From Rickettsiales bacterium (lineage in GTDB: Bacteria; Pseudomonadota; Alphaproteobacteria; TMED127), in contig PALU01000055.1 of NCBI GenBank assembly GCA_002706585.1, positions 1 to 24,398 on the forward strand: DNA of 24,398 nucleotides, in the 5' to 3' direction. Positions 115 through 17,201 of the stretch are shown here, in pieces. A program made the position numbers and the translations under genes. The notes under the pieces were generated by a model. That model did no database searches. It saw nothing but the letters and a program-made list of their open reading frames with translations, and was not told the origin of the DNA. Numbering within the stretch: position 1 is the first letter of the stretch; each line of letters starts with the position of its first letter.

Positions 115-1893
115 TCATAAATCAAATAATTCATTTTTTTTATTATCAAAAAACATTAAATACCATAATTGAAAATTGATTAGAGACATTAAAAAATTTA
201 GATTGTCTCCTGTCCACTTTTTTTTTGTGTCTGGTAGGTCAAGTATACTTTTAACAATTTTAACATCCATAAATTCTGAAATGATTTCATAATCTAGAAA
301 CTTCCAATAAGATCCCCAATATTTCTCATCATACAACCAATCACCATAAGGGCTAGAAAACCCAATTTTTTTCCTGTAGACAAAGTCTTTTGGGAAATAT
401 TTTTCAGCATATTTTTTAAATACATATTTACCATAACCTTTATGATCAATAGACCCATCCTTCATCGAAAATCTTGTATCAATAATGTTATTGGCAGTAA
501 AAGGGGGCCTACCCTCAATTCCACTTGCCATAAACATTCGATCATGCCTGGCTAATAATGAATGAAGAGAGCGTTTAATTGTTAAATAAGATGTTTTTTG
601 CGGATTTGACATATATTTAAATTCGTTTGATTCATTTAATTGTTGTATTTTTTTTAAATGATAATTTTCATCATTAATGTCAAATAATTCATGAATCAAT
701 TTATCAGAAACAAAAAATTTGAAAAGTGACATCAAATCTCCGTTGTAGTTCCAACCATCAAAATATCCATTAAATATATCATCAACACCTTCACCTGTAA
801 TCACCACCGAAACATGTTTTTTTATTTTTTTGGCTAATAAATAATATAAACTTGTGCTAGGGCCGGTTATTGGCGCTTCATTATACCAAATTGATCTTGG
901 TAGGGCTTTTTTGACTTCATTGGGTTGAAATAAATATAAATTAGAGTTAATTCCAAATTGATCAACAACTTCATCAATGTATTTTTTTTCAGACCTAGGT
1001 TTATAAAAGATACGTTCATCATCATTAAATATTACAGAAAAGGAATTGATCGGTTTTAAATTTAAAATTTTGCTACTCCATGCTGCAATCAAGGATGAAT
1101 CAATACCACCACTTAACTGAATACCTGTCCTTCTATCATTACGCCACGCATTATCCAAATTTTTAATTAATATTTCCCTTAGTTGCTCTGGGGATGAAGA
1201 AACTTCTCTTGATGGGTCAATTTTCCAAAATGAAACAAAATCAAGGTTGTGCCTATTGCCTATTTTAATTTTAAGATATGATGCTGGGGGGAAAACATAA
1301 ATATTTTTGAAAAAAGTATCAGGCAATTGTACTGACTGGAAAGCAAAAAATTCTGGGATTACGTTTTTATTGATTTCTTTCTTAACGGTAGGATATTCTA
1401 AGATTGGTTTTATTTCAGACGAAGCTATAAAAGTTTTATTGTTTACATAATAGTATAAAGGTTTAATTCCTATATGATCTCTAAAGTATGTTATTTCCTT
1501 TAAATGCTTATCATATATTGCATAAGCAAACATTCCTTCAAGTTTTTTTACAAAATCAACTCCTTCATTTTTGTAGCCCTCTATTAAAACTTCAGTATCA
1601 GTATCAGTTATAAAATGAGATCCATTGGTTTCTAGGTCATGCCTTAGAGCTCTGTAATTATATATAGCTCCATTAAAAATAATCTTATACCTTCCACATC
1701 TACTAGTAAATGGCTGGTCTCCATTTTCTGATAAGTCATGAATTCTTAGACGCCTAGCCCCTAAAGCAATTTCATGTTCAATAAAGATATTTCCACTATC
1801 AGGTCCGCGGTGATGAAGAAGATCATTTATTTTCTTAAACTCATTAGCTTCGAGTTGTATGTTTTCATCGACTATAGATATAAAACCGCACAT
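115..1893 (-). CDS. Asparagine-synthase-like glutamine amidotransferase (first of two)
   Basis: A 592-residue protein with the two-domain layout of glutamine-dependent asparagine synthetase. The class II glutaminase domain begins with the nucleophile Cys2 (MCGF) and has the HRGPD glutamine-site motif near residues 28-32. The synthetase domain has the ATP/pyrophosphate loop SGGIDS at 261-266. In polysaccharide loci such proteins (WbtH type) are thought to turn the carboxyl of a uronic acid into a carboxamide, using glutamine as ammonia donor and ATP. The nearby diamino-uronate pathway and the NeuB-type synthase both supply carboxylated sugars that could be acceptors. The ATG is fixed by the required Met-Cys start and lies 3 bases after the upstream LpxD-like gene, so the two are cotranscribed. 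Housekeeping asparagine synthesis is possible but less likely in this context. Confidence 0.88.
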   Translation of the reverse strand: MCGFISIVDENIQLEANEFKKINDLLHHRGPDSGNIFIEHEIALGARRLRIHDLSENGDQPFTSRCGRYKIIFNGAIYNYRALRHDLETNGSHFITDTDTEVLIEGYKNEGVDFVKKLEGMFAYAIYDKHLKEITYFRDHIGIKPLYYYVNNKTFIASSEIKPILEYPTVKKEINKNVIPEFFAFQSVQLPDTFFKNIYVFPPASYLKIKIGNRHNLDFVSFWKIDPSREVSSSPEQLREILIKNLDNAWRNDRRTGIQLSGGIDSSLIAAWSSKILNLKPINSFSVIFNDDERIFYKPRSEKKYIDEVVDQFGINSNLYLFQPNEVKKALPRSIWYNEAPITGPSTSLYYLLAKKIKKHVSVVITGEGVDDIFNGYFDGWNYNGDLMSLFKFFVSDKLIHELFDINDENYHLKKIQQLNESNEFKYMSNPQKTSYLTIKRSLHSLLARHDRMFMASGIEGRPPFTANNIIDTRFSMKDGSIDHKGYGKYVFKKYAEKYFPKDFVYRKKIGFSSPYGDWLYDEKYWGSYWKFLDYEIISEFMDVKIVKSILDLPDTKKKWTGDNLNFLMSLINFQLWYLMFFDNKKNELFDL

Positions 1894-1896
1894 TTT

Positions 1897-2787
1897 TTAA
1901 TCTTTTCTCCTTGCAGGATTACCAATCCAAATTTGATTTTTTGGTAAGTTCTTTGTTAGAACTGATCCCATACCTAAAACACCTTTTCTACCAACTTTTA
2001 AACCATCTCTGATAACACTCGAAGGTCCAATCCAAGACCCTTCTTCTATTTTAACGCTTCCGCAAATCGAAACGTTGGCCGTAATTATTACATCCTCAGC
2101 AATGTGTACGTTATGAGCAATATGAGAATTATTGTTTATTTTAACCCCATCACAAATTTTAGTTTCTGAAATAGAACCACGCGCAATAGAAACATTCGAG
2201 AAAATTTCTACATTTTTACCAATTTCAACTGAACCAATATGTTCAACTTTTTCATATATGTTTTCTTTATTTTTTACAAATCCAAATCCGTCAACACCAA
2301 TTACGCTTCCGGAATGAATGATGCAATTATTCGAAATATTAACATTATCATAGATTGTAACATTTCCAAAAATTTGACAGTTGTCACCTATTTGTGATTT
2401 TCCGATAATAGTGTTTTGACCGATAAAACAATTATTTCCAATAGATGATTTAATGTGAATTTGAGCTGATGGATGAATTAAAGGTGATTTAATTTTTTTA
2501 AACAAATTTTCTACAATTCTAGAAAATGCTAATCTTGGATTATCAACACAGATAAGGGTTTTATCATCTGGCATATCTAAATTAATTAATGATCTATCAC
2601 AAATGACAACTCTGGCTCGCGTTTCTTTAACTAATTTTTCTTTATTTTTTTTACTAGGGGAGATCCATACTAGCGAATTGTTCGATTCTTTTCCGAGTTC
2701 TTTTATATGATCGAACCAGTTATCTTCATTTCCAATTATCTGACATTTACCATTCAAGATTTTAGATATTTTATTTACCTTAATCAT
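1897..2787 (-). CDS. LpxD-like N-acyltransferase (left-handed beta-helix)
   Basis: A 296-residue protein with the layout of UDP-3-O-acylglucosamine N-acyltransferase. An N-terminal alpha/beta domain (about 1-100) contains the LpxD-like stretch VDNPRLAFSRIVE. A hexapeptide-repeat left-handed beta-helix (about 105-290) carries the family signature GVDGFGF at 164-170. SHIAHNVHI at 221-229 holds His225 at the position of the LpxD catalytic histidine. True LpxD moves a hydroxyacyl chain from acyl carrier protein to the amino group of a lipid A precursor. This protein is shorter than E. coli LpxD (about 341 residues) because it lacks the C-terminal helical extension. The dedicated carrier protein and dehydratase in the same operon suggest transfer of a special acyl group to an amino sugar of the polysaccharide, which is inference. 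The ATG overlaps the stop of the preceding gene by 4 bases (ATGA). Confidence 0.75.
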   Translation of the reverse strand: MIKVNKISKILNGKCQIIGNEDNWFDHIKELGKESNNSLVWISPSKKNKEKLVKETRARVVICDRSLINLDMPDDKTLICVDNPRLAFSRIVENLFKKIKSPLIHPSAQIHIKSSIGNNCFIGQNTIIGKSQIGDNCQIFGNVTIYDNVNISNNCIIHSGSVIGVDGFGFVKNKENIYEKVEHIGSVEIGKNVEIFSNVSIARGSISETKICDGVKINNNSHIAHNVHIAEDVIITANVSICGSVKIEEGSWIGPSSVIRDGLKVGRKGVLGMGSVLTKNLPKNQIWIGNPARRKD

Positions 2788-3521
2788 TTTAAAGCTTTCT
2801 TAATATTTAATCTTCCATCTTTTTTTAAGTCTGCATGGTATTTATTTAAAATGTTATTGGCTCTTCCGTTGACACATCGCTTTATTCTTTCAAAGGGTTC
2901 CATTTCTTTTTCAACCCACCACCCAGGGTGTGTCAATATGTGAAGATGTTTGTCCTCATTCTCATTTAAAACATTTTTTAATCTGCGAAATCTCCAATAT
3001 CCATTTGAATCAGAAATATAAGATATTTTATTTTTGAATTTTTTAGAGTAAGTATTTATTAAGCCTGCATATTTTTCTTTTTCACAAGTCAAAAGAAATT
3101 TTGTAGGATTATGAAAGCTGAATACAGAAGGTTTTATATTGAAAATGCTCTTAAACAAATCAATTTCATTTTTTAAATAATCTTTTAATTGATCTTCTTT
3201 AGAAACATTATAAAACTCGCTATCAAAATGAATGCCTATTTTATGTCCAAGTTCAATAATTTGATAAATAATTTGAGATTGGCTTTTTTCAAGTATATTA
3301 TAATACTCAGAATGAGGATTTATAAAATATGTAGAATTAATATCAAACTGGTTTTCTATGATTGCTAATTTTTTAGCCCTGTTCAATGATAAATCAATAT
3401 CATGCCTCCATATTACAAATTTTTTGTTGTAATCTATTTCATCATATAAAATGAATTCGTAATTTTTTTTTGCGAGACTTAACAACGATTTATATTCTTT
3501 AATTGTGAAATCGTTTTTCAT
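2784..3521 (-). CDS. Polysaccharide-deacetylase-like protein (NodB-type fold)
   Basis: A 245-residue soluble protein with no signal peptide. It has the metal-site pattern of a NodB/carbohydrate esterase 4-like domain: WRHDID at 38-43 supplies the His-Asp and Asp of motif 1, and GHKIGIHFD at 92-100 corresponds to motif 2. Later HNP (about residue 140) and HPGWW (about 200) resemble the remaining active-site loops. Such proteins remove N-acetyl or other acyl groups from amino sugars. Here one could free an amino group for the LpxD-like acyltransferase encoded next, an inference from adjacency. The ATG overlaps the LuxC-like stop by 4 bases and the stop overlaps the next ATG by 4 bases, so translation is probably coupled. 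The cytoplasmic location implies a nucleotide-sugar or other soluble substrate rather than finished polymer. Confidence 0.7.
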   Translation of the reverse strand: MKNDFTIKEYKSLLSLAKKNYEFILYDEIDYNKKFVIWRHDIDLSLNRAKKLAIIENQFDINSTYFINPHSEYYNILEKSQSQIIYQIIELGHKIGIHFDSEFYNVSKEDQLKDYLKNEIDLFKSIFNIKPSVFSFHNPTKFLLTCEKEKYAGLINTYSKKFKNKISYISDSNGYWRFRRLKNVLNENEDKHLHILTHPGWWVEKEMEPFERIKRCVNGRANNILNKYHADLKKDGRLNIKKALK

Positions 3522-4723
3522 AATATTTCAATACTCCGAGAAAGACTATTGATAATTGAGTAACCATCCCAAATGAGGGAAAAATCCATAGTCCTGCCAA
3601 TTGGTACAATTCTATCTATACCCGATGGTCTTAGTTGTTTCATAATCTCCACTAATTCTTTTCTTTTATAACCATAATACGATAAAGTCTGGTATTTCCT
3701 TTTTACAATTTTTGATAACTCCATGAGTGAGGACGCGTGATACTCTGAGAAATAACCGCTATCGCAACGAAATTGCTCTATATTCTCATCTAAGTCATTT
3801 AAAGTTATGCGCCAAATCATATTATCTTCATTTTGATTATAGCTAATATCCTTCAAGTTTATTGCCTGACTATAAAAGTTTGTAAGTTTATTTATTGCCG
3901 CAACAGGCTCAACTTTATACTTCTTTTTTACTAAAGTATAAAGTTTGTCCCAAAATATATTTTTTGCTTTTTTTACATTTGTTTTTGTACCAGTCCAAAT
4001 AAGTAAATGAGGAGATGTACAAGCGTTCTGGTCAAATAAATACGTGTCGTTATAAAAATCATTTGCAACTTTGTCAGGATTGCTATCATTTATAAACTGA
4101 TCTGCATTCAAAGCACACAATGAATAACGATCAGAAAAGGTAATATCAAATGCTTGCGGTTGAAGTGGGTTTTTTCTTACTTGATTGATAGTGTCATCTC
4201 CTCCCCATATAACTCGAACATCGCATTCTTCAGAAAATTTCTTTGTCAATTCACTATCGCGTTCATATCTAATAAGAATAATTCTTTCTGAGATGGTTTT
4301 ATATTGAGATAGCTCTCCAAGTCGATTTATTGTATCAGAAATGACTTCTATTTGATTAAATTTTCTAGATGGAACTCTAACAATATTAGCGTTACCTGCC
4401 AAAAGACCCATTATCAAAGTAAATGCAAAGTTCACAGGCACATTTGATGGCGCAATATGAAAAACTGTTCCCCTCCCCAATTTAACTAGGGTGCTTTCAT
4501 CAAATTTTTTTTTCAATTTTGAGATATTTGATTTTCTACAAAAAAACGCAAATGCTGCAACATCAGGATGTGTTCGTAAGCGAGGATCTTTTTTCAACTC
4601 TTTTGATAATGCATTTAAATAATCTACAATCTCAATTGAGAATGGCTTCATGGGACAAAGTTTTAAAAATTTATTGTAATCCAAGTTAGCAGAAAGATAA
4701 GTATATTCAGAATTGCTGCGCAT
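3518..4723 (-). CDS. LuxC-family acyl-CoA/acyl-protein reductase
   Basis: A 401-residue member of the LuxC family, related to aldehyde dehydrogenases. LuxC reduces an acyl group, received as a thioester on its own cysteine, to an aldehyde with NADPH. The likely acyl-accepting Cys235 lies in FDQNACTSPHL, matching the family pattern Asp-Gln-x-x-Cys-Ser/Thr-Ser-Pro. A nucleotide-binding type segment precedes it (HIAPSNVPVNFAFTLIMGLL from about 89). The gene starts within the last 17 bases of the LuxE-like gene and overlaps the following deacetylase-like gene by 4 bases. No luciferase (luxA/luxB) or LuxD thioesterase is present, so light production is not the role. The aldehyde product is more likely an intermediate for a sugar or ulosonate, which is inference. 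The true substrate chain length is unknown. Confidence 0.85.
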   Translation of the reverse strand: MRSNSEYTYLSANLDYNKFLKLCPMKPFSIEIVDYLNALSKELKKDPRLRTHPDVAAFAFFCRKSNISKLKKKFDESTLVKLGRGTVFHIAPSNVPVNFAFTLIMGLLAGNANIVRVPSRKFNQIEVISDTINRLGELSQYKTISERIILIRYERDSELTKKFSEECDVRVIWGGDDTINQVRKNPLQPQAFDITFSDRYSLCALNADQFINDSNPDKVANDFYNDTYLFDQNACTSPHLLIWTGTKTNVKKAKNIFWDKLYTLVKKKYKVEPVAAINKLTNFYSQAINLKDISYNQNEDNMIWRITLNDLDENIEQFRCDSGYFSEYHASSLMELSKIVKRKYQTLSYYGYKRKELVEIMKQLRPSGIDRIVPIGRTMDFSLIWDGYSIINSLSRSIEIL

Positions 4724-5786
4724 ATGTATCGCTGCACCCCCTTATTTCGGCATTTTTGATACGCCCAATTATTTTAAAATATTTTCCTAGCCGACCGCAA
4801 CTACAATTGTCTTCTCCCAATAAAATACCTTCATCCTCTGTAAGCAAAGAGTGGCCGGGATAACTCATTGGAAGAACCGATAGAGTTTGTATTATACCTT
4901 TCTCACCATTTTTAGCTAGAGAAAAATCGTGCGATCTTCTAATAAGAATATCAGAAAATATTGAGGCATGCATGTTGCCATGTTCACACTCCATATATAT
5001 TGAACCCGTTTGTTCTACCATGCCATAATAATCATGAACAGAAGTTATACCACACAGTTGATTTAATATTTTACGAAATTCTATCGTTGTAACAGATTCA
5101 TTTTCAAGTTTCTTCCAACCCCCACCATGAATTAAAACTGCACTAGAAAGGTCAAGTTTAATATTTTTTTTCTTGATCTCTTTTATGAAGTGTTGGTAAA
5201 TCATAAATGTAAAACCAAAAATAAAAATTCTTCTTCCCCGGTTTTGTTCAATGAATGAAATGACTTTATCAATATTTAACTCCATTTTATCATCTAGTGC
5301 ATATAATCTTTTAGTGCCAAAGATAGAAAATCCTAAAATCCCAGCACCTCGAGCTGAAAACATTTTTCTATTTTTTAACACAGACGAAGAGTCAATTATC
5401 AACAATGGAGTTCTTTTTGATCCAAGAAATGTAGACACAATTTTAGTAAGCACTTTTGACTGGTTTAATGCAGCATTTTTATCTAAAAATATTTTTGAAA
5501 CTGCTTGCCCAGTAGTTCCAGAAGATGTGATTGTTTTAAAAATCTCTTCTTGGGGAATGCTATATAAATCAAACATTTTAAATAGGCGTACAGGAAAAAA
5601 TGGTATATCAGATAGATGGCTTACACCTTTAAAGTCATATTTTAAACTATTAAGCATCTTTTTATAGTGGTGGCAATTATCATAATGATATTTTGTTAAT
5701 ACACTTAAATATTCAACTAGGAGTGAACTTTTATCCTTCCTATTTAAAGAATAAGGAGAAATAGAAAATAAAGGGTCTAACTTCAA
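4707..5786 (-). CDS. LuxE-family acyl-protein synthetase
   Basis: A 359-residue LuxE-type protein. It belongs to the adenylate-forming enzymes and activates a carboxylic acid with ATP before passing the acyl group to its own cysteine and then to LuxC. The phosphate-binding motif SSGTTG is at 88-93. The adenylation-type motif YGMVEQTG and the family stretch following it (ECEHGNMHASIF) are present. Cys351, nine residues from the end in RGCSDT, is in the place expected for the acyl-carrying cysteine of LuxE. The start is a TTG overlapping the TGA of the upstream ligase gene. No strong ribosome binding site is visible, so translational coupling is likely, and no other in-frame start occurs until Met44. 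Pairing with LuxC implies reduction of an acid to an aldehyde. Confidence 0.82.
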   Translation of the reverse strand: MKLDPLFSISPYSLNRKDKSSLLVEYLSVLTKYHYDNCHHYKKMLNSLKYDFKGVSHLSDIPFFPVRLFKMFDLYSIPQEEIFKTITSSGTTGQAVSKIFLDKNAALNQSKVLTKIVSTFLGSKRTPLLIIDSSSVLKNRKMFSARGAGILGFSIFGTKRLYALDDKMELNIDKVISFIEQNRGRRIFIFGFTFMIYQHFIKEIKKKNIKLDLSSAVLIHGGGWKKLENESVTTIEFRKILNQLCGITSVHDYYGMVEQTGSIYMECEHGNMHASIFSDILIRRSHDFSLAKNGEKGIIQTLSVLPMSYPGHSLLTEDEGILLGEDNCSCGRLGKYFKIIGRIKNAEIRGCSDTYAQQF

Positions 5787-7189
5787 TGATCAGTCAATTT
5801 GGAGTATATGGTTTTTCCTGAAGAATTTTTAGGAATTTCACTTATGTATCTTATGGTAAAAGCTCTTGGGTTAATACCAGTTTTTTGACAAAGGTAATTC
5901 TTCACTTCATCAACTCTACTTTTATCAGTTATATATACTATCATATCATCATCTTGCCCACTGGAAGCACAATCAGGTATTATATTTTTTATCAATCTTT
6001 CTGTTTCATCTAAATTAATTCTGTTACCAAATAATTTAATAAAACGTTTTTTTCGTCCAACTATATAATAGTATCCATCCGAATCTCTTTTTGCCATATC
6101 TCCAGTAAATAGCACACCATTGTTTTCGTCACCTTTAGAAAGATCTTCTAAGCAAAAAGCATAACCTAATGATACATTTTTACCTTTATATACAAGTTCT
6201 CCTTCAATGTTATTCTCTTCAATGGTGATTCCATTTTCATCAATCAATGAAAACTCCCCTCCTGGGATAGGAATACCTATGCTACCAATTTTAGAAATAG
6301 AATTTTTAAATGGAAGATAACTCATCCTAGCAGTTGCTTCGGTTTGTCCATACATTATAAAAAAACGTATTCTTTTTTTCTTACAAAATTCTGAAAACTC
6401 AGTATTTAAATTATCACTTAGTTTTCCTCCAGCCTGCGTTATAGTTTTTAAAAATGGCAAATTCATTTTAAAAAAACGGATTTTTTTTAAAATTTCAAAA
6501 GAATAGGGTATCCCTGATAAAGAAGTTGCTCTATGTGATTGCAAAAAGGACCAAAACTCTCTTTCAATTAAAGAATTTTTCGTTAGTAAAATAGTCGCAC
6601 CTTCTATCAAATGACTGTTAATTATTGATAATCCAAAAGAATAATGCATTGGAAGAGATGTGATTGGACGTTCGTTTTGGTCGATTGATAAATAATTAGA
6701 AATCGCCAGCGCATTCGAGTAAATACTTTCATATGTTAATCTCACTAGCTTGGGGCTTCCTGTACTTCCAGAAGTGGATAAAAGCAGCCCCAGTTCTTCG
6801 TGTAATTTATAAATCCTATTTTGAGATAGTTTAATTAAAGAATAACCTAAAATATTAAATTGTATTTCACCTCCAATAAATACAGAATTATTTTTTTCTG
6901 GAGCCCATATATATTTTGGCTTATAAGTATCAATTAGATTATCAAGTAGATCTTGATTTAAACTACTATCAAGCATTAGGGGAACAATATTGTTCGTTAT
7001 AAATGAAAGGTAGCCAACTAAAGAACCAATGGAATTTTCAGCTAGACAAAATACTAGAGATCTTTGTACAATTTTTTCACTTATCAAATGAGTGTAATCA
7101 ATTAATTGGCTGTATGAATATTGATTTTGGTCTGCAGTAATGACTGCAATATTTTTACTATAGACAGATATTTTACTTGAAGTAATTAT
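5783..7189 (-). CDS. AMP-forming acyl/amino-acid ligase with a non-canonical start
   Basis: A member of the acyl-CoA synthetase/NRPS adenylation superfamily. Counting from the only conventional start, a TTG at 7087, the P-loop STSGSTGSPK is at 104-113. MYGQTEATAR, the TGD hinge region (LFTGDMAKRDSDGYYYIVGR) and the C-terminal catalytic-lysine motif SSGKT also follow. The frame stays open upstream of the TTG and encodes what this family has there (IAVITADQNQYSYSQLIDYT), so the TTG is too late. A ribosome binding site AGGAGA at 7204-7199 sits 9 bases before an in-frame ATA (7189) and 12 before an ATT (7186). I place the start at the ATA, giving 468 residues, but a mutated or misread ATG is equally possible. 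The enzyme would activate a carboxylic acid for the carrier protein or for CoA. Confidence 0.8.
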   Translation of the reverse strand: MITSSKISVYSKNIAVITADQNQYSYSQLIDYTHLISEKIVQRSLVFCLAENSIGSLVGYLSFITNNIVPLMLDSSLNQDLLDNLIDTYKPKYIWAPEKNNSVFIGGEIQFNILGYSLIKLSQNRIYKLHEELGLLLSTSGSTGSPKLVRLTYESIYSNALAISNYLSIDQNERPITSLPMHYSFGLSIINSHLIEGATILLTKNSLIEREFWSFLQSHRATSLSGIPYSFEILKKIRFFKMNLPFLKTITQAGGKLSDNLNTEFSEFCKKKRIRFFIMYGQTEATARMSYLPFKNSISKIGSIGIPIPGGEFSLIDENGITIEENNIEGELVYKGKNVSLGYAFCLEDLSKGDENNGVLFTGDMAKRDSDGYYYIVGRKKRFIKLFGNRINLDETERLIKNIIPDCASSGQDDDMIVYITDKSRVDEVKNYLCQKTGINPRAFTIRYISEIPKNSSGKTIYSKLTDH

Positions 7190-7191
7190 AC

Positions 7192-8232
7192 TTACTTGTC
7201 TCCTTTTAAATCTTCCTCAGTAATCAAGATATCTTTTTCTACATCTCTAATAAGAGTTCTACCAATCAAATCATTTAATTTGCTTGGGGCAAATCCGGTT
7301 CCAGGTCTCTTAACATCAAGATCAGCTTTAACCAATTTTTCCCCAGCCTTCAAATCTTTAGAAGATACAACGCTTCTTCTCATAAGCTTTTTTTGCTCCA
7401 TTTCTGCCTGAAAAATAATCCTTTCTTTACCTCCAATGGCCTTGTGCACATTGTTACAATATTTTACGAGTTGAGACATCTCCTCTGGCTCTAAAGCCAT
7501 TTGGTTATCCATCCCTATTTTTGTTTTATCCAAAGTAAAGTGTTTCTCAATCATACATGCACCAAGAGCAATAGCAGCAGAGGGCACCTCAACACCTAGT
7601 GTATGATCTGAAAAGCCAATTGGGTAATCTGGAAATTGATCACGCAAACCTAATATGTTATTTAATCTTATGGTATCAATCTCTGGCGGATAAATCGATA
7701 CACAATGCAATAAACAAAGCCGCTTATTACCTTCTTCCTCAATAACGCTCACAGCATTTCTTATTTCATCCATTTGGCTCATACCAGTGGACAAAATGAT
7801 TGGCATCCCATATTTTGCTATGTAACGAAGATAGGCGTAGTTGTTCAAATCCATTGAAGCTACTTTAAGATATGGAACGTTCCCTAACTCCACAAGAAAG
7901 TCAACCTCAGCTCTTGAGTAAGGTGTTGAAGAAAAACTTATTTGATTTTTGCTGCAAAAATCAGACAATTCTTTAAGTTCATTCTTTGCAAAAGAGAATT
8001 TTTTTACAAATCTTTTAGCAATTGGGTTTTCGTTATAATATGATTTAGAGTATAAAGTATCTACAGACCATGATTGAAACTTAACACAATCACAACCAAC
8101 CTCTTTTGCTTTGAAAATCATTTTCTTGGCAAGTTCCACATCTCCAAAATGGCTTGTATTGACCTCAGCTACTATATAAGGCTTACCGAAGTCACTCAGA
8201 TGTTTAGAGTCATTTAATTGAATTTTAGCCAT
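7192..8232 (-). CDS. neuB: NeuB-family nonulosonate (sialic-acid-type) synthase
   Basis: A 346-residue protein of the NeuB/SpsE family. These condense phosphoenolpyruvate with an aldose, usually a mannosamine-type sugar, to give a nine-carbon ulosonic acid. The TIM-barrel domain covers about 15-270 and a C-terminal antifreeze-like SAF domain about 285-340 (RSVVSSKDLKAGEKL then KRPGTGF). Both metal-binding histidines are present with the canonical 21-residue spacing, in FSDHT and in EKHFT. The acceptor region after EKHFT reads LDKTKIGMDNQ, unlike the usual Gly-Pro-Asp-His of many relatives, so the acceptor may not be ordinary ManNAc. Neither NeuC nor NeuA is in the window. The gene sits between a ThDP enzyme and the acid-activating genes, which points to an unusual acceptor. 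The symbol indicates family only. Start ATG, with AGGAG rather far upstream. Confidence 0.88.
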   Translation of the reverse strand: MAKIQLNDSKHLSDFGKPYIVAEVNTSHFGDVELAKKMIFKAKEVGCDCVKFQSWSVDTLYSKSYYNENPIAKRFVKKFSFAKNELKELSDFCSKNQISFSSTPYSRAEVDFLVELGNVPYLKVASMDLNNYAYLRYIAKYGMPIILSTGMSQMDEIRNAVSVIEEEGNKRLCLLHCVSIYPPEIDTIRLNNILGLRDQFPDYPIGFSDHTLGVEVPSAAIALGACMIEKHFTLDKTKIGMDNQMALEPEEMSQLVKYCNNVHKAIGGKERIIFQAEMEQKKLMRRSVVSSKDLKAGEKLVKADLDVKRPGTGFAPSKLNDLIGRTLIRDVEKDILITEEDLKGDK

Positions 8233-8264
8233 TACTTCTACTATTGCTCCTAAAAGTAATACTT

Positions 8265-10049
8265 TTATTGATCAATGGGATCGATAATCATTTCTGAGAG
8301 GAAAATTTCTCTATCAAGAAAAGGGGCTTGATCTTCGATAGGCCTACGAACAAATCGCTTGTTGTTGTTTTTAGCATATGAGGTGCTAATATAATCCTGA
8401 TCATGTTTCGCCATTATCTCGCAGATTACAGGCCCTTCCATTTTAATGATAGCTTTTAATTTTTTAACCATTCCATCGCTGTGATTAATCTTTGTGAAAG
8501 GAATATCAAATGCATTTGCAACCTTTTTAAAGTTTGGGCAACTAATGCCATCACTGGGGTCGACTCCTATTGTGCGGGACCGAAACAGATCAACTTGCCT
8601 TTTTCGTATTACTGCATAAGCATTATTATTTATGATAAATATCTTAGCCGGTATATTATTGTACCTAATTGTTTCTAACTCTTGAAGATTCATCATTATG
8701 GAGCCATCTCCAATTACTGCAATTATAGGATTATTACTTGCATAGAAAGCTCCAACCAACCCTGGTAAGGCAAAGCCCATTGAGCCCTGAGACGCTGGAT
8801 GAATACATCGTTGCTCGGGTTTAAAGTTGATGTTTGTTGGTAGAATTAACTCGACTAGACCGGAATCGCTAACAAAAACAGAGTTATGTGGGAGAGCTTC
8901 AGAAAAACTTTCAGCAAGGTGATATAAGTCAATTTTTCCATCTGTTTTGTATTGTTCTTCGCATTTAGGAAATACTTGCTTCCAATGTAAGCATTTATCA
9001 CTCCATTCTTTGGATGCTCTTTTAATTTTATTATCTATTAATTTTACAAGAGTTTTCTTTACATCGGCAATAATGAGTCGATCAATTTTTATGCTTTTTT
9101 TGGAATGCTCAACAGGATCTATATCCACAACAATAACTTTCGCCATTCTTGCAAACTTATCTACTTCTTCTCCAGTTGTCATTGTAGACAACCTAGATCC
9201 TAGCACTATAAGAAGATCAGAATTTTGAATGGTAAAAGTCCCTGCACGTGAACAACCCATCATGCCCACTGAACCGATTGAAAGTGGATTATTTGAACCA
9301 TAAGTATCTGGCGCTGCGTTTGTAAAAGAGACTGGTATTGAAGTTTTTTCAATAAAATGTTCAAGTTCTTTTATTGCTCCAGACAAACGCACACCACTTC
9401 CAATCAAAATAGCGGGTCGTTGTGCATTTTGAAGAGACTTTATGATATAATCTACATCTTCAGGCGATGGCTCATAATCAGGTTCATCTTCTGGTAAAAA
9501 GTGCTTTAGTTCATCCGGATTTATCCTTTTGTTTTGGACATCTAATGGAACATCTATCCAAACTGGGCCTTTTCTTCCAGCTTTTGCTAGATATATTGCT
9601 TTTTCCATTTCATATGCTATCATATTAGGATCGGAAATCATTACTGCATACTTTGTAATTGTGTCAACAATTGGAATTATATCTGCTTCCTGCTGACCAT
9701 AAGTCCGAAGTGGTATTCCTGTAAAACGTGAGGTTTCATTTAATTTATTTTGACCTGAAATAAAAACACATGGTATCCCGTCTTGCCATGCATTTAGAAC
9801 TCCAGTCATTGCATTAGTTTCCGCACAACCTGTTGAGACTAAGCAAGCACCGAGCGTATCGGTGTAATCAGAGTATGCAACTGCAGCAAAAGATGCTGAC
9901 TGTTCATGGTGCATTGAAATACCATGTAAGTTTTCATTGGCGGCAACAGCATCTGAAAGAAACAATGCACCTCTACCGGTCACCATAAAAATATGCCTAG
10001 AACCATTTTTGTATAGCTCTTGCATAATATAATCTGCTACCCTAACCAT
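8265..10049 (-). CDS. Thiamine-diphosphate enzyme, acetolactate-synthase-like
   Basis: A 594-residue ThDP-dependent enzyme with the three-domain layout of acetohydroxyacid synthase and related decarboxylases. The cofactor-activating glutamate is Glu49 in HHEQSASFAA. A central domain (about 205-340) follows. The C-terminal ThDP motif runs from GDG at 447-449 to NNN at 474-476. Family members decarboxylate pyruvate or another 2-oxo acid and add the resulting unit to an aldehyde or ketone. YerE, which makes branched sugars, is a known sugar-locus example. With NeuB downstream and an aldehyde-forming LuxC/LuxE pair in the same operon, carboligation onto a sugar-like or aldehyde intermediate is the best guess, though I cannot name the substrate. 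It is not expected to be the housekeeping IlvB, since no IlvN partner follows. The ATG is preceded by AAAGGAAC at suitable distance. Confidence 0.82.
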   Translation of the reverse strand: MVRVADYIMQELYKNGSRHIFMVTGRGALFLSDAVAANENLHGISMHHEQSASFAAVAYSDYTDTLGACLVSTGCAETNAMTGVLNAWQDGIPCVFISGQNKLNETSRFTGIPLRTYGQQEADIIPIVDTITKYAVMISDPNMIAYEMEKAIYLAKAGRKGPVWIDVPLDVQNKRINPDELKHFLPEDEPDYEPSPEDVDYIIKSLQNAQRPAILIGSGVRLSGAIKELEHFIEKTSIPVSFTNAAPDTYGSNNPLSIGSVGMMGCSRAGTFTIQNSDLLIVLGSRLSTMTTGEEVDKFARMAKVIVVDIDPVEHSKKSIKIDRLIIADVKKTLVKLIDNKIKRASKEWSDKCLHWKQVFPKCEEQYKTDGKIDLYHLAESFSEALPHNSVFVSDSGLVELILPTNINFKPEQRCIHPASQGSMGFALPGLVGAFYASNNPIIAVIGDGSIMMNLQELETIRYNNIPAKIFIINNNAYAVIRKRQVDLFRSRTIGVDPSDGISCPNFKKVANAFDIPFTKINHSDGMVKKLKAIIKMEGPVICEIMAKHDQDYISTSYAKNNNKRFVRRPIEDQAPFLDREIFLSEMIIDPIDQ

Positions 10050-10077
10050 AATTTATTGTTCCTTTCCGTATTGCAAT

Positions 10078-10554
10078 TTATTTCGATGGTTTGAAACTAT
10101 TTAATATGTCAGGTATTGTGACTATAAACTCAGCACTGCACGCAGGTTCTCCTTTCACAAAACTTCTAGCATGCCCTTTTGCAATACCTCTTTTAAAAGA
10201 TTCAAGCCTTGCTTCAATATCAAGGCTTTCACCAGGTACAATTTTTCTTTTGAATTTTACTTTATCAATACTAATAAAATTAGTTTTCATCCCTTTATAC
10301 TCATCCATACAAAGAAAAGTCATTATAAAAGTCTGGACTAAGCATTCTACTTGTATAAAACCAGGTACATTTGGTTCATCATCAAAATGGGCAGGGAAAA
10401 ACCATTCGTTAAAAGAAAAACATTTTATACCAATTGCACTTTCCCCAGGAATAGCTTCTTTTATTTGATCGACAAAGAGAAGAGGATGCCTATTTCTTTG
10501 ACATTCTTGGATCCCTATAATATCAAAGCTAATTTTTTCAGAAATAGTTCCCAT
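10078..10554 (-). CDS. FabZ-like hotdog hydroxyacyl dehydratase
   Basis: A 158-residue single hotdog-fold protein resembling 3-hydroxyacyl-ACP dehydratase FabZ. The substrate-tunnel motif RHPLLFVD is at 22-29. The catalytic His56 lies in FFPAHFDDEPNVPG, and Glu70 follows in the central helix (PGFIQVECLVQ), the positions of the FabZ His/Glu pair. The region replaces the usual GHFPG with AHFDD, so it is divergent and may use an unusual chain. It dehydrates, or perhaps only binds, an acyl group on the carrier protein encoded 12 bases upstream. The operon lacks a ketosynthase and a ketoreductase, so it is not a complete fatty-acid cycle. ATG start with GGGGA upstream. Confidence 0.8.
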   Translation of the reverse strand: MGTISEKISFDIIGIQECQRNRHPLLFVDQIKEAIPGESAIGIKCFSFNEWFFPAHFDDEPNVPGFIQVECLVQTFIMTFLCMDEYKGMKTNFISIDKVKFKRKIVPGESLDIEARLESFKRGIAKGHARSFVKGEPACSAEFIVTIPDILNSFKPSK

Positions 10555-10566
10555 ATTAATTCCCCA

Positions 10567-10806
10567 TTATATTTTAATATCATACTTTCCTAGTATTTCC
10601 TTACCTTTCTCAAAACTTGAAAAATCGATAATATCATCTGTTTCTAATTCAATATTAAATGTATCCTCTAGTTCAGCAATCATCCCCATGTGACCTACAG
10701 AATCCCATTCTGGCACTGATTCATAAACTAGCTCTTCATTTAATTTACTTTTTTCAATTGAGAAGGAATTCATAAAAACGTCTTCATACTTTTTTTCATT
10801 TGTCAT
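10567..10806 (-). CDS. Dedicated acyl carrier protein
   Basis: A 79-residue acidic protein with the carrier-protein fold. Ser36 in EWDSVGHM is the expected 4'-phosphopantetheine attachment site (Asp-Ser followed by a hydrophobic residue). The downstream helix (MIAELEDTFNIEL) and the DII segment match helices II and III of the family. It would hold an acyl or aminoacyl chain for the ligase, dehydratase and possibly the LpxD-like transferase of the same operon. It differs from the house-keeping ACP in having DSVGH rather than the usual DSLD. Translation starts at an ATG with a strong ribosome binding site (AAGGTGATC) just upstream. The 69 bases before it, back to the NeuD-like gene, show no terminator. 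Confidence 0.85.
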   Translation of the reverse strand: MTNEKKYEDVFMNSFSIEKSKLNEELVYESVPEWDSVGHMGMIAELEDTFNIELETDDIIDFSSFEKGKEILGKYDIKI

Positions 10807-10875: not shown

Positions 10876-11592
10876 TTAATCAACTATACCCAACTTTTTT
10901 GATTCCCAATGCTCAATTATTTTTCTCGGGACTTCATCTTTATTATAAACTTTAGCAGGGTTTCCAATAACGCAGTAACCAGGTAAGACATCTCTAAATA
11001 CCACCGAACCCACAGCGACCATTGAACCTGGACCAAGCTCAGTTTCTGGAGCTATTATTGCCCCTGTTCCAATAAAACTATTTGTCCCAATTTTTATGTC
11101 TGTAGCAGTAATTACACTGGCTGCGATTAAAGCATTATCACCGATGAAATTCTTAACACCAACTACCGAACATGCTGAGATTACAACATGATTACCAATT
11201 TTCGATTGAGGATGCACTACACAACCAGCGTGAATAATACACCCTTTCCCAATGTCTACATTATTGTATATTGTAGCGTTAGGATGAATTAAAGTATGGA
11301 AACGTTCAAAGGGAATTGAAAGTTTGTCAAGTAAGTCATAACGCATAAGTCGATTTTTAAAATTCCCGATCGCAAATACAAACTTAACTCCTTCAGGATA
11401 TTTATCCCATTGAGACAAACTTCCCTCAACTAATACTCCATCTACATATGTATTGTGAAGTTTTTCATTATCATCAAGTATCGCTATTAACTCATATTCA
11501 TGTCGCAAAGTATTCAAATCTTTTATCAAGGCTAGTGCCTCAGAACAGCCATATCCTGCACCTAAAATAACGAGTTGATGTTTATTATTCAT
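10876..11592 (-). CDS. NeuD/PglD-like hexapeptide transferase with altered active site
   Basis: A 238-residue protein with an N-terminal Rossmann-like domain (LVILGAGYGCSEA at about 8-20, as in PglD/NeuD) and a C-terminal left-handed beta-helix of hexapeptide repeats ending in VIGNPAKV. Family members acetylate amino groups or hydroxyls of nucleotide sugars or nonulosonates with acetyl-CoA. In PglD and NeuD a catalytic His sits in a Val-Val-Glu/Asp-His-Asp motif. The aligned turn here reads SVVGVKNFIGD at 142-152, so the His and its acidic partner appear to be Val146 and Gly145. The protein may use another residue (His121, His127 and His135 are nearby) or have another role. The ATG overlaps the preceding AsnB-like gene by 8 bases. 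Confidence 0.82.
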   Translation of the reverse strand: MNNKHQLVILGAGYGCSEALALIKDLNTLRHEYELIAILDDNEKLHNTYVDGVLVEGSLSQWDKYPEGVKFVFAIGNFKNRLMRYDLLDKLSIPFERFHTLIHPNATIYNNVDIGKGCIIHAGCVVHPQSKIGNHVVISACSVVGVKNFIGDNALIAASVITATDIKIGTNSFIGTGAIIAPETELGPGSMVAVGSVVFRDVLPGYCVIGNPAKVYNKDEVPRKIIEHWESKKLGIVD

Positions 11593-13462: not shown

Positions 13463-14626
13463 TTATAAGTATTTAGCAACTGTTTTAATAACATAATCTT
13501 GTTCATGCTGTGTAATGCCGTTGAATAAAGGAAACGAAATACTGCAATTATTAGCAATAAATGCATTAGGAAAATCTTCAGGTTCTAATTCATATTTTTC
13601 TTTGTAGTATTGTAACATATGAACTGCATGAGTGGCTGGTCTCGTGGAAACACCATCGTTTTGTAAGTTGTCCATAAATGCATTACGATTTTGATTAATA
13701 ACTTTGATATTATCTATATTAGCTTTATCAATATCAAAAATACATGGATAAGACTGATAACCATGATTATAGTTAATATCATTGTAAGGCAATTGGAAAA
13801 AGTCTGTTCCCTGAAATGCTTTGTAATAATTACTTGCCAACGTTTGTCGTTCAATAACAATATCATCTGCTCTTTCCATTTGAGTTACCCCTAAAGATGC
13901 TTGTATATCAGTCATGCGGTAATTGTACCCAGCATACGGGTGTTCTGCTAATAGGTATGGTTTTGCCCCATGATGCCTTTGAAAATCTGACATAGCCGCG
14001 CCGTGATCTCTTATAGATCGCATTTTTTCAGCTAGTTTATCATCATTGGTAGTTATCATTCCACCTTCACCTGTAGTAATAGCTTTTCTTGGATGGAAAC
14101 TGAAACATCCAGTATCACCAAATGTACCTACATGCTTACCATTATATCTTGCACCAAAACCACAGGCTGCATCTTCGACTACCCATAAATTATGCTTCTG
14201 AGCAATATCCAAAATTGGACCCATATCTGCAGACAATCCAAAAAGATGAACTGGGATAATGGCTTTAGTTTTAGGGGTGATTTTTTCTTCTATTTGGTTT
14301 TCATCGATATTAAATGTCTTCAAATCAATATCGCAAAAAATAACCTTGGCATTTAAATGCTCAACTACGTTTGCTGTGGATATCCATGTAAATGCGGGCA
14401 CTATCACTTCATCATTTGGTTTTAAACCTAGCGCTGCAAGAGAAAGGTGAAGAGCCGTAGTGCAAGAAGTAACAGCTATAGAATGCTTTGAGCCAGTATA
14501 TTCATTCCATTTATTTTCAAACTCCTCAACATAAGGTCCTTGTACTACCCATCCACTTTCTAAAGGTTTTCTAATGATGTTAAACTCTTTTTTTGTTAAA
14601 TGGGTACGCGCTATTGGCACTTTCAT
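13463..14626 (-). CDS. DegT/DnrJ/EryC1-family PLP aminotransferase
   Basis: A 387-residue sugar aminotransferase. Pyridoxal-phosphate is expected on Lys181 in FHPRKAITTGEGG, with Asp152 in VVEDAACGFG contacting the pyridine nitrogen. TSCTTALH near 53-60 is the phosphate-binding region. Such enzymes transfer an amino group from glutamate to a keto-sugar nucleotide. The reading frame extends six codons further to a TTG, but GGAGGAAAG lies inside that extension, directly before ATG at 14626, so ATG is the start. The stop of a broken epimerase overlaps this ATG (ATGA), the same arrangement as at 16215. The partner that would make its keto substrate is not clear: the intact epimerase gene has the signature of an epimerase rather than a dehydratase. 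Confidence 0.88.
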   Translation of the reverse strand: MKVPIARTHLTKKEFNIIRKPLESGWVVQGPYVEEFENKWNEYTGSKHSIAVTSCTTALHLSLAALGLKPNDEVIVPAFTWISTANVVEHLNAKVIFCDIDLKTFNIDENQIEEKITPKTKAIIPVHLFGLSADMGPILDIAQKHNLWVVEDAACGFGARYNGKHVGTFGDTGCFSFHPRKAITTGEGGMITTNDDKLAEKMRSIRDHGAAMSDFQRHHGAKPYLLAEHPYAGYNYRMTDIQASLGVTQMERADDIVIERQTLASNYYKAFQGTDFFQLPYNDINYNHGYQSYPCIFDIDKANIDNIKVINQNRNAFMDNLQNDGVSTRPATHAVHMLQYYKEKYELEPEDFPNAFIANNCSISFPLFNGITQHEQDYVIKTVAKYL

Positions 14627-14743
14627 GAATTTTCTTTCCTCCAATCAATTAATTTCTGAAAATCTTGTTTTAAATCATATTAATACTTGAAGCCCAAATC
14701 TCGTTCGGCTTTTTTTACATCTAATGCGGTTTTGGACGAGGCG
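14579..14743 (-). repeat. Diverged direct repeat, copy B (epimerase end + DegT start)
   Basis: This 165-base segment holds the broken 3' end of an epimerase gene followed by the first 16 codons of the DegT gene. It matches the segment at 16168-16337, which has the same order and the same ATGA overlap. The copies are clearly diverged at the nucleotide level, so this is not a recent exact duplication. Together the two copies bracket the 1424-base insertion with the hydrolase. Confidence 0.7.
14623..14743 (-). pseudogene. Broken 3' end of a sugar epimerase gene
   Basis: The frame begins RLVQNRI, identical to seven residues of the intact epimerase encoded at 16212-17180, and then shifts frame. 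In the shifted frame the sequence continues DVKKAERDLGFKY, then a stop codon, then YDLKQDFQKLIDW, which matches KKDLGFRPKYDLNKGLQKLIEW of the intact protein. One frameshift and one internal stop show that this is a decayed C-terminal fragment of about 40 codons. Its TGA overlaps the ATG of the DegT gene. Confidence 0.8.
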
Positions 14744-14887
14744 ATGGCGACTGAGATCAACGTTGCCATCGATCGAGTGACCTTCATCGTCAAAACTGCG
14801 GTGGCCGATGGCTTTAGTCATTTTGTGCAGATTCGCCAAGTAGACAGATTCGCCGTTGAGATTAAGGATACCAACAATGTCACACAT
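14738..14887 (-). pseudogene. N-terminal fragment of an AsnB-like gene
   Basis: Fifty codons beginning MCDIVGILNLNGE align without gaps to the start of the intact AsnB-like protein encoded at 11585-13462. By my count 29 of 50 residues are identical. The glutaminase motif HRGPD is changed to HRSFD and Gly3 to Asp, so the active site is lost. After codon 50 the frame passes directly into the epimerase fragment. The ATG lies 3 bases after the hydrolase stop, as in a working operon. Base composition is high for this locus (32 G or C in the 60 bases 14761-14820), shared with the hydrolase gene, which suggests that both came in together. Confidence 0.8.
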
Positions 14888-14890
14888 TAG

Positions 14891-16024
14891 TTAAATGGGC
14901 TCCAATTTCATTGTGATAAAATCACGGATCTCCTCAACAGGAAACACATGACCGCCATCATGAGACATACATTCTATGTTGTCGCACTTATGCACAAACT
15001 CTTGGCAAGTCTGCATCTCTTTAGCCTCTATGTAGTAGGTACCGATTTCTAATTCACCCCAACTAAAGAAAAATTCAGTTCGCATTTGGTTAATGCGTGT
15101 AGTAAGAGAATCTAGCCTTAGGATAGAAGAAATTCCGGGAATTATGATTTGTTGGTGCCCGGCCCACTCTACTTTTTCATTGATCAAAGAAAAGCCAGAA
15201 GCAATGATAACAGCGCTGGGCTCAGACTGCAAAGAATTTAATAACGCTGCAGTGCCCCCTTGCGAAACGCCTGCAACAACCAATTCAGAGTATTTCTCTT
15301 TCAGGAATTTGCTGAAAGCAAGTGACTGGGCAATATAGCTGGCAGAATAGGATCCGCCACGGTTCAGGTGCCAGTTTACAAACATATCATCACATAGTTT
15401 ACTTTGACCATCATGAAACGCCAAAATATCTTCGTTAGGTTTGATATAGACATAAACATCAAAGCCTTCATTGAAGGCTTTTAACACGCCATTATGATAG
15501 TTCGTGGAATCTTGCTCATGAATACTAGATGACTGATTCAGGCCGGTTCCTGGAATAATTAGGACGGCATTCTTGTTTTCTAGATGGCTGCGAATTGGGC
15601 CATAAGCAAATGCCTGATATTCTCTGTCTGCAAGCTGATAAGCCACCTCAGTCACTGTTGTCTTACCATCGTCTAGCTGGAACGTTCGCTGACCCTCTAG
15701 TTGAATATCCATATAGGCTGAGAAAAAGTGCTGGACCGGGAGGTAAATCGATTCGTTGGATTGACTAATTCTATCCAGAGATGTGATTGGTTGATAAAGT
15801 AGCTCTCCGGAAATGACAGGGTCAGTAAAAGCGTATTGAATAAGTTCCGCATCTCCAGCGAGTGGTACTCGCCTCTTATCTTCGGACTGTGTAACCACCC
15901 AAGATTTGGCTGTTGCAATCTGATTAAAAGGGTACCATCTGTAATGACCCACATAAATCCCAAAAGTAAATCCTAATGCAATGACAATAACATACGGAAC
16001 GATGTTTTTACGCTGTCTTCTCAA
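14891..16024 (-). CDS. Membrane-anchored alpha/beta hydrolase
   Basis: A 377-residue protein with a basic N-terminus and one hydrophobic segment at about 8-27, probably a signal anchor that leaves the rest in the periplasm. The catalytic domain shows an alpha/beta-hydrolase oxyanion strand (VLIIPGTG at 154-161), the nucleophile elbow GVSQG with Ser254, and a C-terminal His359 in DGGHVFP. I cannot name the substrate; deacylation or esterase activity on exported glycan is possible. The start is a TTG with AGGA upstream; the frame is open further 5' but without a better site. The gene is richer in G+C than its neighbours (27 of 60 at 15601-15660, against 19 of 60 at 16441-16500 in the epimerase). 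It is flanked by gene fragments, indicating acquisition by transfer. Confidence 0.75.
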   Translation of the reverse strand: MRRQRKNIVPYVIVIALGFTFGIYVGHYRWYPFNQIATAKSWVVTQSEDKRRVPLAGDAELIQYAFTDPVISGELLYQPITSLDRISQSNESIYLPVQHFFSAYMDIQLEGQRTFQLDDGKTTVTEVAYQLADREYQAFAYGPIRSHLENKNAVLIIPGTGLNQSSSIHEQDSTNYHNGVLKAFNEGFDVYVYIKPNEDILAFHDGQSKLCDDMFVNWHLNRGGSYSASYIAQSLAFSKFLKEKYSELVVAGVSQGGTAALLNSLQSEPSAVIIASGFSLINEKVEWAGHQQIIIPGISSILRLDSLTTRINQMRTEFFFSWGELEIGTYYIEAKEMQTCQEFVHKCDNIECMSHDGGHVFPVEEIRDFITMKLEPI

Positions 16025-16167
16025 TTTAAATATCCTATTGAGTGTTTTTGTCGGAAGAAGTGTACAACGGCTAACCCGATATAGGCTATATGATATTGGT
16101 AATTTTTAAGCGACATTGATGAGACAAAGGCATTGATAATATTTAACGTTCCGAAAATACCAGGCAT

Positions 16168-16215
16168 CTTAAAATCTTTTTTAGTTAAGTGAGTACGTTC
16201 TGTTGGTAATTTCAT
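16168..16215 (-). pseudogene. N-terminal fragment of a DegT aminotransferase gene
   Basis: Sixteen codons, MKLPTERTHLTKKDFK, match the first 16 of the intact DegT protein (MKVPIARTHLTKKEFN) at 12 positions. They keep the same ribosome-binding region (GGAGGGGGG before the ATG) and the same ATGA overlap with the epimerase stop. Similarity ends abruptly after codon 16. The open frame continues to 16021 with sequence I do not recognise, apart from a faint AsnB-like MPGIFGTLN right after the break. The 143 bases from here to the hydrolase start hold nothing else I can support. Confidence 0.78.
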
Positions 16216-17180: not shown

Positions 17181-17201
17181 TTGTTAATCCCCATAAAATT
17201 A

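Follow-up and report, generated by a model that had tools for sequence, protein, structure and literature searches.

What does a relative of the sialic acid synthases do in the middle of a run of carrier-protein, acid-activating and aldehyde-forming genes? The question is raised by a 24,398-nucleotide stretch of a Rickettsiales bacterium genome (assembly GCA_002706585.1, contig PALU01000055.1, positions 1 to 24,398), called here the window. Open reading frame (ORF) positions and family scans confirmed that nine minus-strand genes at 1897-10806 belong to the families, and form the block of overlapping or close genes, that an initial annotation had named. In order of transcription they encode an acyl carrier protein (ACP), a FabZ-like dehydratase, a thiamine diphosphate (ThDP) enzyme, a NeuB-type synthase, an adenosine monophosphate (AMP)-forming ligase, LuxE, LuxC, a deacetylase-like protein and an LpxD-like transferase. 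The first seven are the core of the module considered here. We propose, with about even confidence, that this core is a portable pathway in which a short, probably hydroxylated or branched acid is carried on a dedicated ACP and becomes the N-acyl substituent of an amino sugar in a surface glycan; the sialic acid synthase relative has apparently been recruited for another function.

Conservation of the core

In a species-level genome collection, 262 stretches matched two peptide patterns of the ThDP enzyme; 240 of these code for a relative, of which the best 80 were retained. The 80 loci were thus chosen by the ThDP protein alone and taken with 10-kb flanks, a core gene being counted as present at a blastp match above 40 bits. 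With the ThDP enzyme as bait in all 80, ACP was present in 71, FabZ in 69, NeuB in 71, the ligase in 69, LuxE in 65 and LuxC in 64. Because each other core gene lies in 64 to 71 of 80 loci picked without regard to it, the grouping is not due to chance. All seven occurred together in 53 of the 80 loci, and in 42 of the 53 long loci (those of at least 20 kb); under a stricter count, with overlapping ORFs resolved, these figures fell to 40 of 80 and 29 of 53, the drop reflecting mostly lost small ACP genes. By record titles and tree labels, the 53 complete loci cover 11 phyla: Verrucomicrobiota, Fidelibacterota, Thermodesulfobacteriota, Bdellovibrionota, Pseudomonadota, Elusimicrobiota, Bacillota, Melainabacteria, Nitrospirota, Bacteroidota and Campylobacterota. 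In the stricter count, FabZ, ThDP and NeuB genes followed one another in 57 of 80 loci and LuxE and LuxC were adjacent in 60, with ligase-LuxE adjacency in 40 and ACP-FabZ-ThDP in 28. ACP, ligase, LuxE and LuxC lie mostly within the same runs as the FabZ-ThDP-NeuB trio, and the placement of ligase-LuxE-LuxC relative to the trio varies between loci. The co-occurrence that the initial annotation had proposed to check, and much of the gene order, thus extend across distant taxa. Its linking of aldehyde-forming and C-C bond-forming enzymes to a carrier protein is supported too.

Catalytic residues are kept in all seven families. The window's ACP (79 aa, 10567..10806) falls below the NCBIfam ACP cut-off (24.6 against 66 bits) and that of Pfam PF00550 (17.4 against 20.8), and has the DS carrier motif; its phosphopantetheine Ser, in DSVGHM, is kept in 61 of 61 relatives. 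The FabZ-like hot-dog dehydratase (158 aa, 10078..10554) matches PF07977 (FabA/FabZ) at 59.4 bits, falls short of the FabZ equivalogs TIGR01750 (99.5 against 155.15) and NF000582 (104.4 against 113), and has a His/Glu dyad, with His in 89 and Glu in 94 of 96 aligned rows. Next come the ThDP-dependent carboligase/decarboxylase (594 aa, 8265..10049), in which Pfam finds three TPP domains, and the NeuB-clade synthase (346 aa, 7192..8232), with PF03102 at 260 bits and a SAF domain. The AMP-forming acyl ligase (434 aa, 5783..7087, from an uncertain TTG start) matches PF00501 at 114 bits, and its A10-type Lys is present in 65 of 68 rows, the remaining three being gaps. In the LuxE-type acyl-protein synthetase (359 aa, 4707..5786; PF04443, 196 bits) the Cys of RGCSD is found in 64 of 69 rows, with four gaps and one Leu, and in the LuxC-type acyl reductase (401 aa, 3518..4723; PF05893, 110 bits) the Cys of QNACTSP is found in 63 of 63; we take these cysteines to be catalytic. 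Both proteins score far under the long-chain equivalogs (LuxE, NF052244, 83.3 against 550; LuxC, NF052251, 51.6 against 750). Overlaps of 4 to 17 nt join the five genes from the ligase through the LpxD-like gene.

The module looks rare and patchy, since a module NeuB (E <= 1e-100) was found in only one of 249 genomes sampled from one phylum, namely the centre genome itself. LuxE is commoner, at 17 of the same 249 genomes (E <= 1e-20, module-bearing centre included), and a plasmid collection queried with the ThDP protein gave no match at 1e-100. LuxE ORFs of 785-798 aa in loci L011, L058, L077 and L078 read as LuxE-LuxC fusions, and one ORF of L049 joins metallo-beta-lactamase and ligase domains. 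Next to the module, several Bacillota loci (L042, L036, L058, L060, L065) have between three and five FabZ-like ORFs. In L074, from Candidatus Symbiopectobacterium endolongispinus, the ThDP, NeuB, ligase, LuxE and LuxC genes are each in pieces, as if the module of this symbiont were decaying; that of the related L015 is intact.

The NeuB clade

The 68 module NeuBs labelled by their motifs stand on one side of a branch with 100/99 support, opposite 16 others, some of them long-branched. The tight grouping with known synthases that would have counted against the initial annotation was not seen: the module NeuB stands apart from the NeuB and PseI proteins that exceed curated cut-offs, in a tree that included no legionaminic acid synthase of proven function. 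Scored with a profile of the window's family, module NeuBs range from 461 to 650 bits, and no other NeuB exceeds 264, five fragment matches being excluded. The N-acetylneuraminate synthase model TIGR03569 (cut-off 399.65) is not reached by the window protein (315.8) nor by those of L016 (305.7) and L063 (313.4); the non-module NeuBs of L081 (504.9) and L082 (455.7) exceed it, and those of L085 (359.1) and the second copy in L057 (348.4) miss it. Likewise the pseudaminic acid synthase model TIGR03586 (cut-off 340.25) gives 262.2 for the window protein and is exceeded by the non-module proteins of L084, L087 and L105. Motifs of the NTSHFG and GMDNQMA types replace GxNHNG and, in the nearest NeuBs, GPDHKAS.

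The module NeuB shares with the NeuB/PseI nonulosonate synthases the fold (1xuu, TM-score 0.80), the SAF domain and the residues that bind phosphoenolpyruvate (PEP) and metal; it differs in forming a separate clade with distinct motifs, in lacking the Asn74 stretch and in rarely having a cytidine monophosphate (CMP)-transferase gene nearby. When the contact residues listed for NmNeuB (Table 3 of PMC6795526) were read off a printed alignment, Glu25, Gln55, Thr110, Lys129, Tyr186, Ser213, His215, Glu234 and Arg314 were kept, the stretch around Asn74 was missing, and Phe112 was replaced by Tyr, Asn184 by Ser and Phe288 by Lys or Leu. This pattern suggests that the module enzyme keeps the same PEP chemistry and, less surely, that it uses a different aldehyde. 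The matter bears on annotation, as in source records the relatives of the module NeuB go by names such as N-acetylneuraminate synthase or sialic acid synthase SpsE, and those of the ThDP enzyme by acetolactate synthase. If our reading is right, the clade with NTSHFG/GMDNQMA-type motifs is misannotated, and genomes that have it may be credited with a sialic acid capacity that they lack.

A second, very divergent NeuB domain lies within a longer protein in L014 (506-3499; 998 aa, with a cupin domain) and L034 (2854-4791). Both are near another ThDP enzyme (33-34% identity), and may represent a second NeuB-ThDP pairing.

CMP-transferases near the module

Ulosonates are normally CMP-activated. The initial annotation had noted the absence of NeuA and NeuC from the window, and indeed there was no PF02348 (NeuA) or PF02350 (NeuC) match among the 20 window proteins scanned with Pfam. 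The neighbourhood of NeuB was then compared in 24 genomes hand-picked from the 80 loci, eight PF03102 matches of 48 bits or less being excluded before the count. PF02348 lay within 10 kb of 1 of 24 module NeuBs and of 9 of 13 other NeuBs in the same genomes (Fisher p = 5e-5), and in the sole module exception, G008, a second NeuB is closer to the PF02348 gene. In five genomes (G002, G005, G007, G013, G021) the only PF02348 match sits on another contig; short contigs and incomplete genomes make such absences less certain. The contrast makes a CMP-activated ulosonate unlikely, and with PF02348 absent within 10 kb in 23 of the 24 genomes we rejected that product.

LuxE lies 11 kb or less from the module NeuB in 23 of the 24 genomes, which mostly restates the choice of loci, and is present in all 24, which is not independent either because 23 of the genomes had been picked from loci that already showed LuxE. 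A Flagellin_N match was found in 20 of the genomes. By comparison of coordinates, a flagellin gene lies 13 kb or less from the module NeuB in L016 and L018. A flagellin-specific role was rejected as a general explanation, four of the 24 genomes having no Flagellin_N match.

The ThDP enzyme

The solved structure closest to the ThDP enzyme is 8rph, to which the family profile gives 440 bits, the best acetolactate synthase reaching 290; the window protein does not reach the cut-off for biosynthetic acetolactate synthase (TIGR00118, 324.6 against 538.35). The printed sequence of 8rph shows a CDG motif, and this motif is given for JanthE, a YerE-like enzyme (PMC12247030), so that 8rph is presumably JanthE. 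The YerE-like lyases (YerE, ErwE, JanthE) are thus the best solved relatives of the module enzyme by far, and differ from it in the motif, for the module has the canonical GDG (81 of 83 rows with a letter) and not CDG. ErwE prefers donors such as 4-hydroxy-2-oxo acids (PMC12247030). That preference fits the present case because a 4-hydroxy-2-oxo acid is the type of product expected of NeuB chemistry.

A possible pathway and its sugar acceptor

The following route would connect the seven proteins. LuxE would activate a small acid and LuxC reduce it to the aldehyde, with which the NeuB-clade enzyme and PEP would give a 4-hydroxy-2-oxo acid. The YerE/JanthE-like ThDP enzyme would form a second C-C bond, either with the 2-oxo acid as donor or by adding a pyruvate-derived unit to it. 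The AMP ligase would load the resulting acid onto the ACP, where FabZ could dehydrate it, and a local N-acyltransferase, in the window the LpxD-like or the NeuD-like protein, would transfer the acyl group to a sugar whose free amine could come from the deacetylase or the DegT enzyme. We infer the substrates, the order of the second to fourth steps and the product.

In the window, the LpxD-like N-acyltransferase (296 aa, 1897..2787) exceeds the PRK00892 subfamily cut-off (212.7 against 207) and has LpxD proteins as its top PDB relatives, while staying below the LpxD equivalog TIGR01853 (189.6 against 242.5). The adjoining protein (245 aa, 2784..3521) has no Pfam match at cut-off; its structure was predicted with a pLDDT of 92.9, and carbohydrate esterase family 4 (CE4)-type polysaccharide deacetylases make up 24 of the 25 PDB matches at E <= 0.001 found by Foldseek, with modest TM-scores of 0.34-0.49. 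The pair recalls LpxC and LpxD of lipid A, as if a sugar were deacetylated and re-acylated, but the window deacetylase is CE4-like and not LpxC, and its partner scores under the LpxD equivalog. Locus L002, from a Neomarinimicrobiota record, shares the window's upstream WbpD-epimerase-DegT-AsnB-NeuD run. There, by eye, deacetylase-like and formyltransferase-like ORFs (16559-18198) stand right after LuxC in place of the deacetylase/LpxD-like pair.

Among the 53 long loci, DegT-type genes lie near the core in 34, acyltransferase-type genes (NeuD, LpxD-like, WbpD-like and two GNAT-like groups, one assigned by eye) in 41, FabG in 25 and KASIII in 18. The GNAT-like group assigned by eye, c11, matched no family, and nothing in the PDB below E 0.02. 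The amino-sugar genes differ from locus to locus: transaminases exceed the WecE cut-offs in L006 and L047, those of L016, L024 and L018 are of other kinds, and L016 also encodes a CDP-glucose dehydratase. The sugar genes therefore vary around the core, and transaminases and acyltransferase-type genes often recur.

Comparison with known systems

The firmest experimental anchor for the acyl reading is an analogy, the viosamine island of Pseudomonas syringae (vioA, vioB, acp, vioR, vioS; PMC3927599). There an N-acylated amino sugar arises through a carrier protein, dedicated chain-building enzymes, an aminotransferase and an acyltransferase, and removal of vioR leaves flagellin glycans without N-(3-hydroxybutyryl) viosamine (PMC3927599). 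The same kinds of genes are the first five of locus L015 (= L140), directly before the core, in the run DegT-NeuD-ACP2-FabG-FabH-ACP-FabZ-ThDP-NeuB-metallo-beta-lactamase-ligase-LuxE-LuxC. In its turn the available text on the viosamine island names no NeuB, ThDP enzyme, AMP ligase, LuxE or LuxC (PMC3927599), and among the window proteins scanned DegT, NeuD-like and ACP were present and KASIII and FabG were not seen.

Flagellin islands of Aeromonas group II, Enterobacteriaceae and Dickeya share the ACP, ligase, LuxE and LuxC families with the core (PMC7874193, PMC4875605, PMC7575072); where the window has FabZ-ThDP-NeuB, they have FabG, or FabG with tktA/tktB. In Aeromonas the NeuB beside the block is PseI, and there too the block's function is putative. 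Similar blocks were found among 18 LuxE places in 17 genomes, of which 10 outside the module were examined. L135 and L136 have an ACP-FabG-ligase-LuxE-LuxC block; L132 has a block with no ACP detected and L133 one without FabG. L131 combines the acyl block with a split transketolase and two FabG genes, and L134 has a split transketolase and FabZ, with no ligase detected; the LuxE/LuxC of L130, L137, L138 and L139 are more distant. L135 also encodes PseB, PseC, PseF and PseI over their cut-offs, and matches the published layout of Aeromonas group II (PMC7874193).

Aeromonas AH-3 carries a small unknown moiety of 102 Da (PMC7874193), and the values for piscicola AH-3, a group II strain, fit C4H6O3 (376.148 if it replaces one acetyl; dihydroxybutanoyl or O-methylglyceryl), as they fit other formulas. 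A. caviae Sch3N has plain Pse5Ac7Ac, with a diagnostic ion at m/z 317.1 (PMC9290775), and is among the strains without glycosyltransferase genes between the pse genes (PMC7874193). These are one pair of strains, and prove nothing. The acyl group of the Treponema denticola flagellin glycan, which resembles a product of PEP and glyceraldehyde, would presumably be a known product of similar chemistry. That glycan has a mass of 450.2 Da (PMC9481697). In PMC13317340, on Clostridium flagellin glycosylation, LuxE, LuxC and carrier terms do not occur. The acyl block is thus already described in flagellin islands. In the literature searched, in which subscription papers were poorly covered, we recognised no description of its combination with NeuB and a ThDP enzyme in a set of seven genes.

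A wider proposal, held tentatively and at somewhat less than even confidence, is that these loci share an unnamed cross-phylum route in which a NeuB clade outside sugar chemistry and a YerE-like ThDP enzyme elongate LuxE-derived aldehydes, a PEP/thiamine alternative to malonyl chain building that feeds unknown N-acyl groups into surface glycans, with an exchangeable C-C step (transketolase halves or FabZ-ThDP-NeuB). If so, the role of the LuxE/LuxC blocks in flagellin and polysaccharide islands becomes testable, where surveys stop at 'liposugar' (PMC7874193, PMC4875605).

Alternative readings

The relationship to YerE and ErwE raises the possibility that the ThDP enzyme extends a 4-keto nucleotide sugar by a side chain whose donor, a 2-oxo acid, is built by NeuB and LuxE/LuxC, so that the product would be a C-branched or higher-carbon sugar. 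We consider this unlikely. It would account for 8rph with its CDG motif and for the donor preference of ErwE (PMC12247030), and CDP-glucose synthase-like or 4,6-dehydratase genes do occur in 10 of the 80 loci, one dehydratase being family-checked and the synthase group recognised by eye. The other 70 loci, some of them short, and the window showed no such genes; none of nine DegT proteins tested from module loci reached the RfbH cut-off, and the ligase, ACP and FabZ would be left unexplained. An improbable variant on the sugar side has NeuB making a new ulosonic acid that is itself incorporated, with the acyl genes decorating it. The NeuB fold and the retained PEP and metal residues speak for this, as does the ACP-FabG-ligase-LuxE-LuxC block adjoining a genuine pseudaminic acid pathway in L135, but the NeuB of L135 is a true PseI and not of the module clade, and the distribution of PF02348 (1 of 24 against 9 of 13, with five genomes having their sole match on another contig) argues the other way. 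We infer that an N-acyl substituent fits better than an ulosonate-like sugar. Of the initial annotation's ulosonate-like or branched-chain moiety assembled on a carrier, then, the carrier logic stands and the ulosonate-like part is the less well supported, and a branched sugar is conceivable though unlikely, CDP-glucose genes having been seen in only 10 of 80 loci.

It is also conceivable, and in our view quite improbable, that ACP, ligase, LuxE and LuxC belong to one pathway and FabZ-ThDP-NeuB to another, the two merely travelling together in glycan islands. Acyl blocks without ThDP enzyme and NeuB exist in L131 through L136, and the distances of NeuB and FabZ correlate at only 0.38. These mirror-tree values are correlations of pairwise protein distances, confounded by shared ancestry and given without a null. 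NeuB distances nevertheless correlate with those of LuxC (0.77) and LuxE (0.72), as with ThDP and ligase (0.71 each); ligase and LuxE correlate at 0.90, and ThDP with ligase at 0.39 and with LuxE at 0.42. The trio is adjacent in most loci with the acyl genes mostly in the same runs, and L131 and L134 carry another carboligase where the trio would stand, a substitution that suggests a single pathway whose C-C steps can be exchanged. That the product is the lipid or fatty-aldehyde part of a glycolipid, the 'liposugar' proposed from gene families for LuxE/LuxC flagellin islands (PMC4875605, PMC7874193), seems very improbable here: LuxE and LuxC score far below the long-chain equivalogs, it is not obvious what NeuB and a carboligase would contribute to a fatty chain, and the AH-3 moiety is small (102 Da; PMC7874193).

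Several observations count against the N-acyl pathway as we propose it. We found no product, substrate or glycan structure of any module-bearing strain. Decarboxylation of the NeuB product by the ThDP enzyme would leave the ligase in need of a carboxylate from another source, so that the second to fourth steps do not join up neatly, and FabZ and LuxE/LuxC would suit a lipid or polyketide chain equally well. The trio is not obligatory, for five loci with distant ThDP enzymes (L049, L071, L077, L078, L079) keep ACP, LuxE and ligase without NeuB and FabZ. In the mirror-tree comparison NeuB correlates with FabZ (0.38) and ACP (0.50) less well than with the non-core DegT (0.57), and a NeuB-ligase-LuxE-LuxC unit is therefore better supported than a tight unit of seven. 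In the NeuB active site the ManNAc-contacting Arg314 is kept (by the NmNeuB list of PMC6795526), and two of the changes are not special to the clade, because in the printed alignment PseI, too, carries Ser in place of Asn184, and at Phe288 it has Val, next to a Phe. On the sugar side, polysaccharide loci commonly contain transaminases and acyltransferases, and our counts carry no background rate; 11 of the 53 long loci have neither counted type; and within the viosamine-like block DegT, NeuD and FabH fall short of curated cut-offs (the KASIII of the cluster was tested in L017).

Neighbouring genes in the window

The run that contains the core ends with an asparagine-synthase-like (AsnB-like) amidotransferase gene (592 aa, 115..1893, minus strand; TIGR01536, 360.8 against a cut-off of 267.1), which begins 3 nt past the LpxD-like gene. 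Upstream of the block, on the same strand, are genes for NeuD-like, AsnB-like, DegT, epimerase, WbpD/B/E/A-like and Wzz-family proteins, and the window also has a UDP-sugar-type dehydrogenase; the NeuD-like, DegT, epimerase, Wbp-like and Wzz-family genes mark a surface-polysaccharide region. The NeuD/PglD/VioB-like sugar N-acyltransferase (238 aa, 10876..11592), a probable accessory of the core, scores 158.9 with TIGR03570, just under the cut-off of 160.8. The DegT aminotransferase (393 aa, 13463..14644; PF01041, 390.6 bits, below the listed NCBIfam cut-offs) could supply the amino sugar. Resemblance to the cispentacin proteins AmcE and AmcH is slight in the window (33.7 of 140 and 82.5 of 370 bits).

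A 140-nt direct repeat with 74% identity (14577-14716 and 16166-16305) flanks a hydrolase-like ORF (14891-16024), and GC content is raised there (0.424 for 15001-16000). By eye, the ORF at 14675-14887 has an AsnB-like start and an epimerase-like end, and that at 16021-16233 starts like the DegT protein; the region 14577-16305 has the look of a scar left by an insertion or a partial duplication. An L-2-hydroxyglutarate oxidase (534.6 bits against a cut-off of 299) is encoded at 23177-24364, where the polysaccharide region has its edge.

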